The notes beneath the pieces were generated by a model. The model did not search any database. It saw only the letters and a program-made list of their open reading frames with translations, and was not told the DNA's origin. This document shows positions 4,064 to 51,576 of a stretch of 64,000 nt of DNA, piece by piece (position 1 is the stretch's first letter; the number at the start of each line of letters is the position of its first letter). The DNA comes from a virus. A program made the position numbers and the translations under genes. The stretch lies in IMG/VR virus record IMGVR_UViG_3300033571_009404, positions 62,001 to 126,000 of that record; one strand, given 5' to 3'.

Positions 4064-4603
4064 ATGGATTTACTCCAGTTTCTGCCTTATCTTTCAATTG
4101 TTTCTTTCCTCTTCTTCCTCGGCGCTATTGTCGTATTGGTAAGATTTACCATGAGGACCAATCGACGTATTAAGGAAAACCTTCAAGTTACGCTGGTGTC
4201 AGACTGGCCTGATGGCTATGTGGTAGATACACTAGCTAATGACATAGGCATCAAACCACGTAACTACGGTATCGCTGTTGGCAGGCATTCATTCCGTGTT
4301 GTCATTGGTTGGAAAGAACAAGTTACCAAACAGTTAAGAATTCACTCCACCAACAACATGGAGACAGACGGCTGCATTTTAGCCAGCGGTTTGGCATTCG
4401 TCGTTATGCGAGAGTATTACGATGATCCTCATCTCCATGAAATTGAAGTACCGATGAACGAACGTACTCCAGTGAGATATGTGCTAGATGAACTTAAGAA
4501 CTGTCATCTAGTTAAACAAGATGATCGCGTTGTCCAATTCATTACTTACACCACAGTTAATGGATTGGTGCGCATCCCTAATGTAGGAGATAATAATGCT
4601 TGA
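4064..4603 (+). CDS. Membrane-anchored protein, unknown
   Basis: A 179-residue protein. I chose ATG 4064 because GGAG (4055-4058) stands 5 nt before it; an in-frame ATG at 4028 lies in the terminator tail and has no ribosome site. Residues ~5-28 are one hydrophobic segment (PYLSIVSFLFFLGAIVVLV), then a basic cluster (RTNRRIKE), predicting a single-pass protein with a soluble domain of ~150 residues probably on the cytoplasmic side. It overlaps the next gene by 8 nt. Confidence 0.8.
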   Translation: MDLLQFLPYLSIVSFLFFLGAIVVLVRFTMRTNRRIKENLQVTLVSDWPDGYVVDTLANDIGIKPRNYGIAVGRHSFRVVIGWKEQVTKQLRIHSTNNMETDGCILASGLAFVVMREYYDDPHLHEIEVPMNERTPVRYVLDELKNCHLVKQDDRVVQFITYTTVNGLVRIPNVGDNNA

Positions 4604-7686: not shown

Positions 7687-8289
7687 ATGAAGTTAAATGA
7701 AGATGTGGTGAGAACATTAGAACTACTTGCTACGATTGGCTTGATCGTCGTTAGCATCTACTTCGATTTCTCAGCACCGGGAGGTCCAGCTTGGAACACA
7801 CTGGGGTTACTGGTTGGGGGTGTTTGTCTGGGATGGATTGTCAAGACCTTATCAGTCACCGCTGATGAAGCCACCAAGCTTACCGGTAAGGTGGAACGCA
7901 TTATCTGGGCACGTCATCCGCGTGCTGAGATCTGGCGAGGGTATTATCATCAGTTTTTACAGCGACTGTGGGCTCCGGTCAATACCGACGAGAGCATCAT
8001 GTTAGTTGCTATTAAGCACCATCCCTCTGGTGTGATCTTTGCTATCAATCGTCCAGGACGACATCATGACCTGGTTCGTTTGATGGATGAACTGGGTTAC
8101 GGGATTAAAGACAATGATCACCGTGCCTATGAAGACCAAGGCTTTATCACATCGCGTGGTCGATATGTGAACCGTTACGAAGCAGCGGCTATTGCCAAAC
8201 GGTGCAGGCAGATCCTCCCACGCGGTATGACTGGATCGGATGATGAGTTGTATTCAGAAGATCTGTTTGAAGGTGGTTTAGACGTATAG
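7687..8289 (+). CDS. Membrane protein with two N-terminal helices, unknown
   Basis: A 200-residue protein with two hydrophobic stretches (~13-28 and ~36-52) forming a hairpin, then a soluble domain of ~145 residues. The domain contains 'WARHPRAEIWRGYYHQFLQRLW' and a 'GYGIKDNDHRAYEDQGFI' segment, and ends in an acidic tail. Start supported by AGGACTACCC. A terminator follows the stop. No family recognised. Confidence 0.78.
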   Translation: MKLNEDVVRTLELLATIGLIVVSIYFDFSAPGGPAWNTLGLLVGGVCLGWIVKTLSVTADEATKLTGKVERIIWARHPRAEIWRGYYHQFLQRLWAPVNTDESIMLVAIKHHPSGVIFAINRPGRHHDLVRLMDELGYGIKDNDHRAYEDQGFITSRGRYVNRYEAAAIAKRCRQILPRGMTGSDDELYSEDLFEGGLDV

Positions 8290-8307
8290 TTGTACTTACC
8301 GCGTATC

Positions 8308-8337
8308 GTCCAGGATAATCCCTGGACTTTATGCCCT
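8308..8337 (+). terminator. Terminator with TTTATGCCC element
   Basis: GTCCAGG (8308-8314) pairs with CCTGGAC (8321-8327), followed by TTTATGCCCTTAC. The same hairpin-TTATGNCC arrangement recurs at most operon ends in this window. Confidence 0.75.
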
Positions 8338-12331: not shown

Positions 12332-12988
12332 ATGGCTGTGCAAGAAATCTCCATCAACCGGGCTCTGACTACTGTCAAGAACCTGAAGAAAGAAATCGAA
12401 GAATACTTCAACGAGCCGCGCATCTTCGTGATCGCTCTGCAAGGTACGGAAGACCGCGTGGTCGCACACGGCTTCGACAAAGCGTACATGGAAAAGCAGA
12501 TGCAATCGGACTACGACAGCTACATCAACAAGCTGGCGCGTTACGATGCACTGAAGGCCGCGATCGTCAAGTCCAACGCTGAAACCAAGGTCTCCATCAA
12601 CGGCCAAGAATACACGGTTGCCGCTGCTGTCGAACTGAAGGCCACGGTCAAGTTCAAGGAAACCCTGCTGACGCACTGGAAGAAGCAGATGGCTACGATC
12701 TCCAAGGTCGTCTCCGATGCCAATGCCAAGCTGGAATCCACGCTCAAGACCGACATCGACAACATCAACAAGTCCAGGACCGAAGCCGACGGCGACTCTG
12801 CCCAGGAATACATCGCCGCCCTGACTCGTCTGAACACCGAGCGCTACACGGTCAAGGTGCACGACTACCTGCAGCTGGCAACCAAGATCAAGGAACTGGA
12901 AAACGAGATCCGCACCATCAACGAAGAACTGGACTGGGCACTGTCCGATTCGAACATGAAGACCCTGATCTCTGTCGATCTGGGTTAA
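12332..12988 (+). CDS. Abundant coiled-coil protein, unknown
   Basis: A 218-residue, almost entirely helical protein with heptad-like stretches at both ends (ALTTVKNLKKEIEEYF near residue 12; LQLATKIKELENEIRTINEEL near 190). Codon choice is extremely biased (CTG, AAG, ATC, GGC and few A/T-ending codons), unlike most neighbours and like the capsid gene, so it is probably one of the most highly expressed phage proteins. It has its own promoter-like motif and AAGGATAAGAAAC ribosome site. No family recognised. Confidence 0.82.
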   Translation: MAVQEISINRALTTVKNLKKEIEEYFNEPRIFVIALQGTEDRVVAHGFDKAYMEKQMQSDYDSYINKLARYDALKAAIVKSNAETKVSINGQEYTVAAAVELKATVKFKETLLTHWKKQMATISKVVSDANAKLESTLKTDIDNINKSRTEADGDSAQEYIAALTRLNTERYTVKVHDYLQLATKIKELENEIRTINEELDWALSDSNMKTLISVDLG

Positions 12989-13113
12989 GTCTCATCGCTT
13001 GAAATAATCCCTGTGAATTGGTGTGCATGAAGTTAGCAAACCTTATTCACCTATACGGCCTGTAGGTAAAGTAATCTGGCCAACCAACCAACTATCTTTT
13101 GCGAAGATACTTG

Positions 13114-13186
13114 GTTCCATTAGCTCACTTGGTAGAGCAACAGACCAATAATCTGTAGGTCGCCGGTTCGATTCCGGTATGGAACC
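13114..13186 (+). tRNA. tRNA with anticodon loop CCAATAA (apparent AAU, Ile)
   Basis: A cloverleaf folds well: acceptor GTTCCAT/ATGGAAC (7 bp), D arm GCTC-ACTTGGTA-GAGC, anticodon stem ACAGA/TCTGT, variable AGGTC, T arm GCCGG-TTCGATT-CCGGT. The seven-base anticodon loop (13145-13151) reads CCAATAA, placing AAT at 34-36 and C at position 33, where U is almost universal. CCA is not fully encoded (CCCT follows). The identity is therefore uncertain: nominally Ile(AAU), otherwise a decayed or specialised tRNA. Confidence 0.75.
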
Positions 13187-13527
13187 CCTATACTAGCAGT
13201 AACCCCTCAAAGGTTAAAGCTTTAAAGGTCAAGTTTCAAAGATCTAAAGTTCATCTACCTTAAAGCTCAATGGTTAAAGCTTGTAGTTAAAAGCTCTTGT
13301 AAGTCCACATCAAAAGCGCGTTCGAAAGAACTAGGTGAGAGTAAGCACCGAGCTACGCGTGTGGCAATGTACAGCGAGTCACAGGGACTCCGAATTCGTA
13401 GTAGCAGTAAACGTGCCGTGTATCACGTCTGCCTATCGGCAATACATGTTGGACCTGGTCCTGCGTCTGGGCGGCCTATCGGCAACGCAACGGGTGAGAT
13501 CGAAAGGTCTCACCCAATCCCCATATA
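13187..13527 (+). other. Protein-free spacer between the two tRNAs, with hairpins
   Basis: No convincing gene. Short frames here lack ribosome sites. Visible structure: GGTTAAAGCTT occurs twice (near 13212 and 13270); two copies of GCCTATCGGC, each able to fold GCC-TATC-GGC (near 13430 and 13474); and GGGTGAGA/TCTCACCC (13492-13499 with 13508-13515) just ahead of the tRNA-Leu 5' end, possibly a processing signal. It is probably transcribed as part of the tRNA/ncRNA unit. Confidence 0.5.
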
Positions 13528-14105
13528 GCCAGGGTGGTGAAATCGGTAGACACAGCGGACTTATCGTCATGATTAATTCATGATATTGAGCACCTTCGAA
13601 AAATGAGTCAGTAGTCTAGTGAGACAGCTAGAGCAGCAGCTGGGCGTAACGACTCAATCGAAAGACGTTGGTGAATCCTTTCAAATTCGGCGAACACTAA
13701 ACTTGAATGAATTGTGCCTGTCCGGGAACAGGGGAACAACACTTTAGTCCATTGTAATAGATGGTAAAGGTGCCAAGCGAAAGCATCCCAATTCAAGCAT
13801 GTCAACGCCGAGCCAAGCCTAAACAAGAGATTACAGACTAAGACACTCTTGGGATTGTGATGTGTGCCGAAGTCGTGAATGTTTACGAGTTAGGATAGGC
13901 ATAATCCATGGAAGGTGTAGAGACTATACGGAAGGGATCTAAGTTTGGCGTCACACTCCTATGTCGGGGGCTTCGTTCAAATATGATCAAGACATAGTCC
14001 AGACCACAAACAGCGTAAGCTGGTAGTGAAAACTATAGTGGTAAGAAAATCCGCCGCGTCAGTCTAATAAACGGCGTACGGGTTCGAGTCCCGTGCCTGG
14101 CACCA
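13528..14105 (+). tRNA. tRNA-Leu(UAA), interrupted by a group I intron
   Basis: Exon 1 is 13528-13562 and exon 2 is 14046-14105. Joined, they give a class II tRNA: acceptor GCCAGG/CCTGGC with encoded ACCA end, D arm like bacterial tRNA-Leu (GTGAAATCGGTAGACAC), anticodon stem GCGGA/TCCGC, loop CTTAAAA with anticodon TAA, a long variable region, and T arm ACGGG-TTCGAGT-CCCGT. The only clear mismatch is G7-G66. The insertion lies between U34 and A35 of the anticodon. Without splicing the tRNA cannot fold, so the intron must be removed for function. Confidence 0.9.
13563..14045 (+). ncRNA. Group I self-splicing intron (tRNA-Leu type)
   Basis: 483 nt between U34 and A35 of the tRNA. The last base of exon 1 is U and the last intron base is G, as required. 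The 5' end can form P1: exon CUU pairs with UGAG-type sequence at 13587-13592, leaving the splice-site U opposite G, topped by a TCATGA/TCATGA stem. Conserved core pieces are visible: a P element TTTCAAATTCGGCGAA (13679-13694), an R element GGTGTAGAGACTATACGG (13914-13931), and an S element AAGACATAGTCC (13989-14000), with R and S able to pair as P7. No open frame for a homing endonuclease is present. The core resembles the cyanobacterial and plastid tRNA-Leu introns. Confidence 0.88.
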
Positions 14106-15475
14106 TGAATTGCAGTAGTAAAAAACAAGTTACTCATGCAAGGTTCGAGTCCTTGAATGTTCTGAACTTTAATCGGTCAGAAATCCATTGAGATGAGTAA
14201 CTAACCTAGTTAAACTTGCGGTGTATATCTAGGAAACATGCTCCTCTGAGTTAAGGGTGTTGTAATCGCTAGGTTGGGTTTAATTTTCATGTTTATACCA
14301 ATCGGTAATTACGAAACCGCCTGTTTTTTAACCGGTTTACTTTATTAGTGCACGCGCAACGTATCTACTCCATGGATGTAAATAGATGGAGTTGGAGAAA
14401 TTGCCTGGTAGTTTACAGCGAGGTTAGGTCTCAAGGAGGTAGATTCTTCCTGAGTACCTTGACATGAGGCACTAGATGAGCAGGGTCGACTTCTCCACGG
14501 AAGTTCCCTCTCGTGGGAATCTGTCATTAGACGTGCTGAACTAATAGAGTGAACTGTCATTGTGATGCTTACGGGGACATCGGTAAAAACCCCTGCAATT
14601 ACCAAGTGAGGCTCGCATGAAGTAATTAGACCCGAAACATCCAAACCAAACAGTTGTAGTTTTAACCATTTTTCTATTCTAGTCAAATAGTAAACGTGGA
14701 TACGTAAGAGCGAACGGGTACAGATCAATTAGCCGGACCGTCAATCCGGAGAGTCCTAATTGATCAACAAGGGGGAGGGTGATCCACTAACGCCGCTTCA
14801 TCCTCCCACTTCTAAACATTACTGACGAGCCGTTCAAGTCGGCATCAATGGGTGAAAGGCCCACGAAATCACAGTAGCATCGTGATCTAATGAAGGGTAA
14901 AGTCTTACCCTCTACTGACTGCGCTTAGGCGTGGAGGTCGGTGAAGTTCTTGGAGGAGCCGCGAGGACACTATTCGTGACTGGATAGTGAACTACCCGGT
15001 AGCTTGCCAAGAATGGCTACGCGCGCTTTGAATTTAAGCCCTCTCTGATCAATTGGGTTTAATCCTCAGACCGCGAAGTTGTAAGCGAAAGAATCCTTAC
15101 TTAAGGGCCAACCGAAAGGAAGCCGCGATGGGTAGGAAACATGGAAGAGTCTCCTTACGGGAGGTGGCCCCTAAAGTAGTACCATGTTGTGGAACGTGGT
15201 GTTACCGATTTTCTCTAAGCCTTGAGTGGCAAGTGCCATGAGGTAAAGCTTCCATGTTTTTGATTCTAGTAGTAAGCAGCCTATAGTTTGTCATCGCTTG
15301 CGTTTTTCGATTGACGCGGGATCACGCCTCAGATGGGCAAGTGTTGGTTGAAGCACCTACCACTTGCTCATTTGCGGCCTGGCTACTCCCTGCTGGCATG
15401 TCTCGGTCTAGTCAACTGAGTCGTCCTAGTATAGTGACTGGATGGTAAACTATGGGATGTTTATTTAATGCATAT
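14106..15475 (+). ncRNA. Large structured non-coding RNA candidate
   Basis: About 1.37 kb directly after the tRNA-Leu with no credible coding frame but many strong helices. Examples: AGTTACTCAT/ATGAGTAACT (14128-14137 with 14193-14202, 10 bp) enclosing a T-arm-like hairpin and a TTCTGA/TCAGAA hairpin; AACCTAG/CTAGGTT (14203-14209 with 14269-14275); ACTCCAT/ATGGAGT (14367-14373 with 14386-14392); GATCAATTA/TAATTGATC (14723-14731 with 14757-14765) with inner CCGGA/TCCGG; AGGGTAA/TTACCCT (14894-14900 with 14905-14911); CACTAT/ATAGTG (14968-14973 with 14984-14989); GCAAGTG/CACTTGC (15337-15343 with 15361-15367). A terminator follows. Size, richness in helices and position beside phage tRNAs recall GOLLD and ROOL RNAs; I cannot verify membership. 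Confidence 0.65.
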
Positions 15476-15478
15476 TAA

Positions 15479-15512
15479 CCACATGGGGCTAGTCCTCATG
15501 TGGGTTTTATGC
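15479..15512 (+). terminator. Terminator closing the tRNA/ncRNA unit
   Basis: CCACATGGGG (15479-15488) pairs with CCTCATGTGG (15494-15503), nearly perfect, followed by GTTTTATGCCCTTAGTTTTCTTTTT. It shows the hairpin-TTATGCCC pattern. Confidence 0.82.
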
Positions 15513-15546
15513 CCTTAGTTTTCTTTTTGTTAATAAAGGAAGTGTG

Positions 15547-15966
15547 ATGGATAAGTCTAAGTTTCCTGATAACTTCGATTTGTTTACTACGATTGGGACG
15601 GTACGTCATCCTCCCCAAAGTCGTACCTCAGTGCTGGTATATGGGTTAAATCGTGACATTAATGATGGGATAAAACTTATTGAATCCTTGGATAGTAATG
15701 ACATGGTTGCCAAAATCTTTAATGACAATGGCGCTTTAATCTGGGAAGTAACCTATAGCGATAAAGTGATCGACTGGGCTGTAGAGACGTTGATTCACTT
15801 GAGGGTGGTTCTGGTCAGGTCGCAGAAGTACATTGATACTGCATTCCCAGTTCGTGAGCAAGTACTCATGGATATAGTGGACTTCTTAAGCCTGGTGGCG
15901 TTCCGACGCAAATTCAGTGTGGAGATCCACATCTGTAAACAAAGGAAGAATGATGTACGAGAATAA
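15547..15966 (+). CDS. Hypothetical protein
   Basis: A 139-residue protein of unknown function, first gene after the RNA block. ATG 15547 is preferred over GTG 15544 because AAGGA (15536-15540) is better spaced. The middle (DINDGIKLIESLDSNDMVAKIF) looks like an alpha/beta domain and the C-terminus is helical and basic. It overlaps the next gene by 14 nt. Confidence 0.77.
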   Translation: MDKSKFPDNFDLFTTIGTVRHPPQSRTSVLVYGLNRDINDGIKLIESLDSNDMVAKIFNDNGALIWEVTYSDKVIDWAVETLIHLRVVLVRSQKYIDTAFPVREQVLMDIVDFLSLVAFRRKFSVEIHICKQRKNDVRE

Positions 15967-49332: not shown

Positions 49333-51576
49333 ATGTCGAAATCCGCAATTCAACTGAAACAAGGCAAGAACGCTGGTGCTGGTTCGAGCCGTCAATTTCA
49401 ATCGGTTAGCGAGACCGCCTTCAATGAAATGAAGTCCCACCTGATTCGCTCGGGTACTGGCTTCGAACAAGGTGATGCACGCAAGACCATCACCCTGGAA
49501 GGCATGGGCGAAACTGACTTCGTCCGCGTCAACAACGCTCTGGATGGCCTGAGCACCGCCCTGGGCACCATCGCTCAAGAAGCCTACACTCTGGGTCAAC
49601 GCGTGGATGCCGAAGGCAAGCCCATCGAATCCAAGCACACCCAAGCTCAAGTCGACGCTGCTGCTCTGGCTCTGGCCTATGCATCGGACCCGGCTTCCTT
49701 CTTCAAGACCGCTGGCCGTCGCGCCGTGTCGATGGAAGAAGGCGAAGTCATGATGAAGTCGCCCATTCAGTCGCTGCCGCGTCTGAAGGAATCGATGGAA
49801 GCGTACGACGAGAAGGAAAACCGCAATGCGGCTCTGTACTCGGCTACCTTCAACATGATGGCCGCTCACCAAGACGAATTCGGCGAAGCTTTCTTCCCGA
49901 CCGTCGTGGTTCCTGTCGACCAAGCTGGCTACACCATCGCTACCCGTATCACCCGCGTGATCAACGACATCCGTCGCGATCCCAATGGCGATCCGCAAAG
50001 CCTGAACGCCAAGAACATCGTCCAAGCTGTGATCGATGCCTCGATCCTGCGTAACGACATCACCATGCTGTACCCGGTGGTTCGTGACGACAGCGCCAAG
50101 TACTTCGTGGACGCTGGCGACGTGGCTCCGTACAACGTGGAACTGGACGGCAACCCGCTGCTGACCGCTCCGCTGAAGATGGGCGTTGAGTTCAGCCTGC
50201 TGAACATCTCGCAATCGGAAATCGAACTCGCCAAGGGCGTGCAAGATATCACCGACTCCGTCGATCCGGCCATGTACCTGAAGGCTCTGTACATCAAGCT
50301 GGGTACCGGCAACAGCGCTGAAGTCATCAAGATCCTGACTCAAGATCTGCCGCTGTCCGCTTTCAACTACTCGGTCCAAGACAACTACCGCGACGTGGTG
50401 CTGAACTTCAAGTCCAAGCGCCTGACCGTGAACTCGAAGACCAAGAAGGCCGACGGTACTGACTCGACCCTGCTGGCTCCGCTGGCTACTGGTGAACTGA
50501 ACGTTCGTCTGGGTCTGCGTGTCAACGGTGACTTCAACACCCAAACCGGTAACGGTACTCTGTCGGCCACTCCGGTGACCGTGCAACTGGTGACCAAGGC
50601 TGGCCAATCCCTGGCTCTGGACGCTGGTGAAGGCAAGACCGCTGCTGACATCTTCGCTGGCGCAACCGTCATCGGCTACGATCTGGACGCTCGTCGTACC
50701 AACAGCAACCTGCGTAACCGTGGTCAACTGCTGGATAACACCTGGCAGTACCAGACCTACCCGCTGCCCATCGGCGCACCGATCTCGATCCTGCACCCGA
50801 TGAGCCAAAGCGATGCCAACGATGCAGCTGAACTGTCCTCGCTGATCACCGCCGCTCGTATCACCACCTCGAACCACGCTGTGACTGCACTGCTGCGCGC
50901 ACGTGACGCCCTGGCTTCGTTCGTCGTGAATGACGATGGTTTCGATGACAACGAAAACAAGCCGCAGATCTTCGGCGCTGCTTCGCTGTTCGTCAAGCCG
51001 CACTTCAAGCAAGTTCCGTTCGACGCTGAAAAGGTCGTCGACTCGCTGAAGTCGCAAGAGCGTGCACGTGACGTGCAAGAAGCTCTGGTGAACGTGCTGC
51101 GTTCGGAAATCTACCAAGCGTATCGTGACTCCGGCTACAAGGCCGCTGCTGATGCTCGTGCCGGTGGCCCTGCCCCGACCCCGACCGTCATCATCGGTAC
51201 TGACCCGGTGATCGCTCGCTGGCTGATGGTTACCGGTGACCTGCGTCTGATCGGTCCTGACTTCAATGTCAAGGTCGTGTCGACTCTGGACACCCGCATG
51301 AAGGGCAAGATCTTCATGTCGTTCGGTAACTTCGACGGCACCAACCAAGGCGTGCCTGACTTCCTGCACTTCGGTAACATGGGCTGGCGTCCGGAGTTGG
51401 TCCTGACCCTGCCGATCAGCCGTAACAACCAGATCTCCAAGGAACTGGTTGTGCAGCCGTCGTTCCTGCACGTGCCGAACCTGCCGATCCTGATCCAGGT
51501 CGATGTCACCAACATCGAAACTGTGGTTGAGAACAAGGTCTCGGTCAACACCGTGGACGTCACCCCGGCTCCGTAA
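49333..51576 (+). CDS. Major capsid protein, phiKZ gp120 type
   Basis: A 747-residue protein, the same length as phiKZ gp120. The coding sequence is the most codon-biased in the window (almost only C/G-ending preferred codons), as for the main virion protein. An N-terminal delta-domain is expected: S154-M-E156 ('LKESMEAYDEKEN') fits the S/A-x-E prohead-protease motif close to the cleavage position known for phiKZ (S133-M-E135 is the alternative). The mature part begins with 'NAALYSATFNMMAAHQDEFGEAFFPTVVV', typical of HK97-fold N-arm/E-loop transition regions in this group. Two terminators in series follow. Confidence 0.88.
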   Translation: MSKSAIQLKQGKNAGAGSSRQFQSVSETAFNEMKSHLIRSGTGFEQGDARKTITLEGMGETDFVRVNNALDGLSTALGTIAQEAYTLGQRVDAEGKPIESKHTQAQVDAAALALAYASDPASFFKTAGRRAVSMEEGEVMMKSPIQSLPRLKESMEAYDEKENRNAALYSATFNMMAAHQDEFGEAFFPTVVVPVDQAGYTIATRITRVINDIRRDPNGDPQSLNAKNIVQAVIDASILRNDITMLYPVVRDDSAKYFVDAGDVAPYNVELDGNPLLTAPLKMGVEFSLLNISQSEIELAKGVQDITDSVDPAMYLKALYIKLGTGNSAEVIKILTQDLPLSAFNYSVQDNYRDVVLNFKSKRLTVNSKTKKADGTDSTLLAPLATGELNVRLGLRVNGDFNTQTGNGTLSATPVTVQLVTKAGQSLALDAGEGKTAADIFAGATVIGYDLDARRTNSNLRNRGQLLDNTWQYQTYPLPIGAPISILHPMSQSDANDAAELSSLITAARITTSNHAVTALLRARDALASFVVNDDGFDDNENKPQIFGAASLFVKPHFKQVPFDAEKVVDSLKSQERARDVQEALVNVLRSEIYQAYRDSGYKAAADARAGGPAPTPTVIIGTDPVIARWLMVTGDLRLIGPDFNVKVVSTLDTRMKGKIFMSFGNFDGTNQGVPDFLHFGNMGWRPELVLTLPISRNNQISKELVVQPSFLHVPNLPILIQVDVTNIETVVENKVSVNTVDVTPAP

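Follow-up and report, generated by a model that had tools for sequence, protein, structure and literature searches.

Phage tRNA islands are accompanied by several kinds of structured RNA. GOLLD (RF02032) and ROOL (RF03087) are large, protein-free RNAs of elaborate predicted structure that lie beside such islands and have no assigned function. Self-cleaving motifs are also associated with phage tRNA genes; the theta ribozymes, which have an HDV-like fold, cut at the tRNA 3' end (PMC10879173). The hammerhead ribozyme is governed by sequence rules that include an A15.1-U16.1 pair and one unpaired non-G nucleotide at position 17; apart from A15.1-U16.1, no pair of the canonical hammerhead is conserved as strongly as 10.1-11.1 in stem II (PMC3088659). 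Rearranged natural hammerheads are known, among them type SGC, in which the order of the core blocks is permuted (PMC10085705). Finally, two T-loops placed close together in one RNA, where they interdigitate, are the signature of the known tRNA-elbow binders, RNase P, T-box, and the L1 stalk (PMC4810234).

Here, we describe a block of jumbo phage DNA that, judged from its sequence and from those of its relatives, probably encodes a new class of tRNA-island phage RNA containing a T-loop hammerhead, whose predicted cleavage after C14887 would release an RNA of about 590 nt. The RNA resembles GOLLD and ROOL in its general character but at Rfam sensitivity matches neither in sequence or structure, and it differs from both in carrying a candidate ribozyme module. 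This module shares with the type I hammerhead (RF00163) the CUGANGA...GAA core, the A15.1-U16.1 pair, the unpaired H17, stems I and III, and the topology, but has two T-loop hairpins for stem II. In contrast to the theta ribozymes, members of its family have a hammerhead core and lie 0.3-1.3 kb from tRNAs, and in contrast to type SGC they keep the core blocks in normal order. Unlike the T-loops of those tRNA-elbow binders, the ones predicted here are embedded in a ribozyme core.

The window that was analysed is a stretch of 64,000 nt comprising bases 62001-126000 of a linear IMG/VR virus record of 310,114 bases. It belongs to a jumbo phage of phiKZ type, 310 kb in length. Positions 49333-51576 encode a major capsid protein of the same type, which is 46% identical to its counterpart in Burkholderia phage FLC9, the closest isolate identified. 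IMG/VR yielded a single contig whose capsid gene is identical, and that contig lacks the block. The genes flanking the block were used to seek relatives and yielded none, and a BLAST search of the block against phages returned chance matches only. An exact match of 18 bases in relatives G006 and G009 resembled homology and was rejected on account of its location in coding sequence.

By codon scoring, positions 12986-15543 form the largest gap in the window, left empty of genes, and an Rfam search of this gap matched no family except tRNA and group I intron. All RNA features of the window described below are on the plus strand. A tRNA-Ile gene (13114-13188) was identified by ARAGORN and by Rfam (RF00005, 62.7 bits); the ~340 nt that separate it from the next tRNA gene (13189-13527) are gene-free and have a fold z of -2.3. 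The anticodon loop of the tRNA-Leu(UAA) gene (13528-14105) is interrupted by a 483-nt group I intron (13563-14045), and for that reason ARAGORN misses the gene. When the exons (13528-13562 and 14046-14105) are joined, ARAGORN folds them as a canonical 95-nt tRNA-Leu(taa), and the intron boundaries are taken from this joined form; Rfam matches Intron_gpI at 13561-14025 with 39 bits and an E-value of 8e-8, below the gathering score of 50. A sequence similar to the tRNA-Leu intron region is present in the tRNA region of relative G002. Directly after tRNA-Leu(UAA) begins the block itself (14106-15475), which is ended by an intrinsic-terminator-like hairpin with a T-rich tail (15479-15503); the next gene, at 15544, lies 40 nt downstream of that hairpin. 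An earlier note, made from the sequence of the window, had described a protein-free block next to phage tRNAs that is closed by a terminator, and each of these points is borne out; the group I intron and the hammerhead-type module with its two T-loop hairpins go beyond it.

The same note had pointed to more than a dozen strong helices. The predicted folding energy of the whole block is indeed -464.9 kcal/mol (z = -5.9), but z-scores of -5.0, -5.3, and -7.7 occur among coding windows in the same genome, and the folding of 200-nt windows within the block is mostly unremarkable. Many strong helices are weak evidence because coding windows of this phage fold comparably, and folding energy was therefore rejected as proof of structure. 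A 10-bp helix (14128-14137/14193-14202) around a T-arm-like hairpin (14139-14155), singled out in the note, is present in the sequence. The 5' part of the block (14106-14816) is gene-free and predicted to be structured (fold z -3.8 for 14106-14700); no relatives of it were found, with only short chance matches at E<=10. As far as sequence comparison goes, support for structure is confined to 14817-14892 and to a 3' core, and it is there that the covariation in relatives envisaged by the note was seen.

The hammerhead-like core at 14817-14892 was first noticed by reading the sequence. A descriptor scan found this core once on the plus strand of the window and gave 3 matches in 9.6 Mb of shuffled sequence, a count that serves as a guide only, the motif having been seen before the descriptor was run. 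The candidate module comprises 76 nt, lies 711 nt 3' of tRNA-Leu, and has type I topology with a double T-loop stem II. The 5' strand of stem I, CATTA (14817-14821), pairs with TAATG at 14888-14892 and is followed by CUGACGA (14822-14828), which corresponds to C3-U4-G5-A6-N7-G8-A9 of the hammerhead. T-loop hairpin 1 (14829-14843; GCCG-UUCAAGU-CGGC) and T-loop hairpin 2 (14849-14863; UGGG-UGAAAGG-CCCA) precede C11.1 and G12-A13-A14 (14864-14867), which are followed in turn by the stem III hairpin (14868-14886), closed by A15.1-U16.1, and by C17 (14887), after which cleavage is predicted. The 3' strand of stem I would then supply the first bases of the 3' product. A reading of the module as an ordinary hammerhead was revised to a T-loop variant, as base 10.1 varies inside hairpin 1 in relatives.

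In a relaxed scan of the tRNA regions of related phages the same strings were found in gene-free gaps of FLC9, G005, G006, G009, and G014, and there, just as in the window, CUGANGA and GAA are separated by two T-loop hairpins. Large gaps without genes in L139 were set aside. A pattern search gave 15 matches in 11 of 39 records versus 1 for the reversed pattern; 5 of the 15 sit in long open frames and were rejected as modules. Two longer patterns match 19 IMG/VR stretches. One stretch comes from genome_contigs, in a MAG labelled Thaumarchaeota, and its contig also has a PHROG-type protein. Altogether the module recurs in at least 20 other phages, including IMG/VR contigs and the named phages FLC9, PaBG, and SURPRISE13; FLC6 and FLC8 have only a short BLAST match to hairpin 2. 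The linker between the T-loop hairpins ranges from 3 to 60 nt among members, and stem III may enclose 100-220 nt. A covariance model, R1, built from 15 modules with the window and FLC9 left out, has the module as its sole match in the window (64 bits, E 2.5e-19), and its matches in other phages, including those used to build it, reach down to E 1e-21.

Same-strand tRNA genes occur within ~1.5 kb of the module in the window, PaBG, L175, L178, L182, L184, L185, and L187, and in PaBG the module (NC_022096 121540-121660), whose predicted cut follows A17, is located within an unannotated 1.5-kb gap inside the tRNA island. Proximity to tRNAs is not universal: in FLC9-type phages the module is 7-10 kb away from the tRNA array, and several members have no tRNA nearby. 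Short stand-alone modules are found between genes in L186, whose contig carries a terminase, and in L172, whose contig carries a portal-like protein. In the L186 module (4355-4417, minus strand) the ribosome-binding sequence of the following gene forms part of stem I, and the predicted cut falls just before that sequence; a ribozyme or switch in a phage operon is possible there.

For a comparison of pairing, 17 distinct modules were aligned after their linkers and inserts had been shortened. Pairs form in 93.8% of cells, as against 64.3% in shuffled and 31-41% in slid alignments, and 93 cells are changed on both sides, compared with 29.4. Hairpin 1 is paired in 98.5% of cells, with 3 of its 4 pairs changed on both sides, and hairpin 2 in 94.1%. 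Stem I (98.8%) and stem III (84.7%, the least contribution) show both-side changes in all 10 pairs, covariation that is partly selected, since for long stem III inserts the 3' partner was chosen by pairing. Stem fits for single modules are often weak (p 0.0-0.38).

The C3UGANGA9 and G12A13A14 core is present in the window and in 16 further modules, an invariance that is not independent in that the CUGANGA/GAA string was in the search pattern; similarly, C11.1 with G12-A13-A14 is invariant in the 17 modules, CGAA having been in the search patterns. Both loops fit the T-loop sequences (UKCRAGU, UGNAANG) in most members, which was also partly imposed by the pattern. Other hammerhead rules were not imposed. 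In 15 of 16 modules the best or tied score is obtained with precisely one unpaired base separating stem III from stem I, and the A15.1-U16.1 pair is found in 15 of 16, the exception being L172 with G-C at 15.1-16.1. The unpaired position 17 is C in nine of 16 modules, A in four, U in three, and G in none; in G008 a first fit of stems III and I gave G17, and a better fit gives A17. The G10.1-C11.1 pair of stem II is absent, since base 10.1 lies within T-loop hairpin 1, where it can be A, C, or U. Because this base varies, the core geometry must differ from that of canonical hammerheads. At E<=1, Rfam Hammerhead_1 matches nothing in FLC9 or in the phage of the window, and no Rfam 15 family matches the block, the FLC9 RNA, or the L172, L176, and L182-L187 modules.

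The strongest argument from context for reading the module as a hammerhead is the arrangement in relative G023. In this phage, tRNA-Leu(UAA) is followed, after about 600 nt and on the same strand, by a putative type I hammerhead of ordinary form, its stem II comprising 5 bp (GUCCU/AGGAC), and then by AAGUUGU and GCAGCCUAUA. The order is the same as in the window, the T-loop form occupying the position that a normal hammerhead has in this relative. The G023 hammerhead scores 16.1 bits in the Rfam model against a gathering score of 34, and its assignment rests on the sequence fit too. The large RNA block of G023 ends in a degenerate tRNA-like sequence (L138 16788-16884).

Downstream of the module, the motifs AAGUUGU (15076-15082) and GCAGCC (15276-15281) are common to the window and to G023, FLC9, G005, G008, G014, G035, G012, L174, and L175. 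They are 33-78 nt apart in most relatives versus 199 in the window, where a domain at 15139-15257, closed in both the MFE and the centroid fold by the 9-bp helix ACATGGAAG/CTTCCATGT (15139-15147/15249-15257), is apparently an insert between them. In seven of these RNAs the last domain is closed by a helix whose first bases are those after GCAG and whose end is GGG. In the window this helix joins 15280-15290 to TAAACTATGGG (15446-15456), which has the shared GGG end, with 11 of 11 pairs formed (p<1/300 against the shuffled 3' part). Over the seven RNAs 92.2% is paired, versus 74.8% when shuffled, and 7 of the 11 pairs change on both sides; the helix was not seen in G023, FLC9, or G005.

We infer from this arrangement that the block belongs to a transcription unit of the tRNA island in which tRNA-Ile, the intron-bearing tRNA-Leu, the large non-coding RNA, and the terminator follow one another. 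The nascent transcript would fold and the ribozyme would cut after C14887, separating the tRNA-bearing upstream part from a downstream RNA of about 590 nt. This RNA, presumably the functional product, would start at U14888 with a 5' hydroxyl, carry the core of AAGUUGU, GCAGCC, and the closing helix, and end at the terminator. The two T-loops could stabilise the ribozyme core in place of the usual contact between loops I and II, and may also bind a tRNA at its elbow, a role that such loops have in RNase P, T-box, and the L1 stalk. A tRNA-sensing ribozyme, in which docking of a phage or host tRNA elbow switches cleavage, so that RNA release would indicate the state of tRNA inside the infected cell, seems rather unlikely.

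The module might alternatively descend from, or only resemble, a hammerhead core, and might no longer cut, serving the large RNA instead as a domain that is structural or binds tRNA elbows. The loss of stem II, whose first pair is highly conserved in hammerheads (PMC3088659), would fit such a domain, as would the T-loop signature of tRNA-elbow binders (PMC4810234) and the breach of the A15.1-U16.1 rule in L172. We consider this account plausible yet unlikely: the exclusion of G from position 17 and the near-constant A15.1-U16.1 pair are hard to explain without selection for cleavage, and against it also stand the stand-alone modules of L186 and L172 and the ordinary hammerhead that occupies the same place in G023. 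It is improbable that the block is a cis-regulatory leader, for instance one that senses tRNA in the manner of a T-box and acts on the terminator upstream of the 15544 gene. The paired T-loops, the terminator with a gene so close behind it, and the ribosome-binding sequence enclosed by the L186 module would agree with this role, but the module is about 590 nt upstream of the terminator, no T-box match was obtained at E<=5, and no antiterminator pairing was identified in a coarse search; moreover, no counterpart of the gene that follows the block is present behind the tRNA block of FLC9.

A T-arm-like hairpin and tRNA-spacer-like motifs in the block, together with odd tRNA-like genes in FLC9, could suggest a functionless remnant of a decayed tRNA array and introns. 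Such decay is very improbable, and is contradicted for 14817-15456 by a covarying module and 3' core that are kept across distant phages. In proposing a large structured RNA beside the tRNAs, the earlier note had named GOLLD and ROOL, or a new class, as candidates. A divergent member of either family would agree in size, in place beside tRNA genes, and in elaborate predicted fold (PMC12286853), but is extremely improbable after the Infernal-type search that the note had called for: with permissive filters and no positive control genome, GOLLD gave no match in 12990-15560 at E<=5, and ROOL, likewise searched without a positive control genome, gave none there at E<=5 and is absent from the whole record. 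The large protein-free RNA by the tRNA island thus stands as one of no listed class, and the RF01998-type accession that the note had assigned to GOLLD was wrong. That the block instead holds unrecognised small protein genes is scarcely credible; a 127-aa minus-strand frame exists at 14345-14728, but the block is empty by codon scoring. The preferred reading remains a tRNA-island RNA that is probably processed by a T-loop hammerhead.

Should this reading hold, the large tRNA-island phage RNAs would gain a further class, one with representatives in phages already in culture (PaBG on P. aeruginosa PAO1; FLC9 and SURPRISE13 on Burkholderia glumae), so that its expression, cleavage, and function could be tested directly in laboratory infections. 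It would also provide a hammerhead in which a pair of loops, of the type with which other RNAs hold tRNA, takes the place of stem II, an element deemed basic to the fold. The form with T-loops for stem II is unlisted in Rfam, and a partial survey of the openly licensed literature found no paper on it; its novelty is not proven.

A different RNA of ~470 nt lies directly after the tRNA array in five phages only, namely FLC9 (L004 6670-7145, minus strand), G005, G006, G009, and G031. Given its position in the same slot, it was at first taken as the counterpart of the block, and was rejected as such since it lacks the module and is not similar to the window in sequence. This RNA, which has no Rfam match, also contains AAGUUGU and GCAGCC and shows its own set of compensatory changes: in its consensus fold, 26 pairs are changed on both sides. 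The adjoining FLC9 tRNA array (L004 about 7930-8310, minus strand) includes several tRNA-like genes seemingly without an anticodon arm. A GTAGTA-type spacer follows tRNA 3' ends in FLC9 (L004), and the motif also occurs in the window block at 14115-14120 and 15269-15274.
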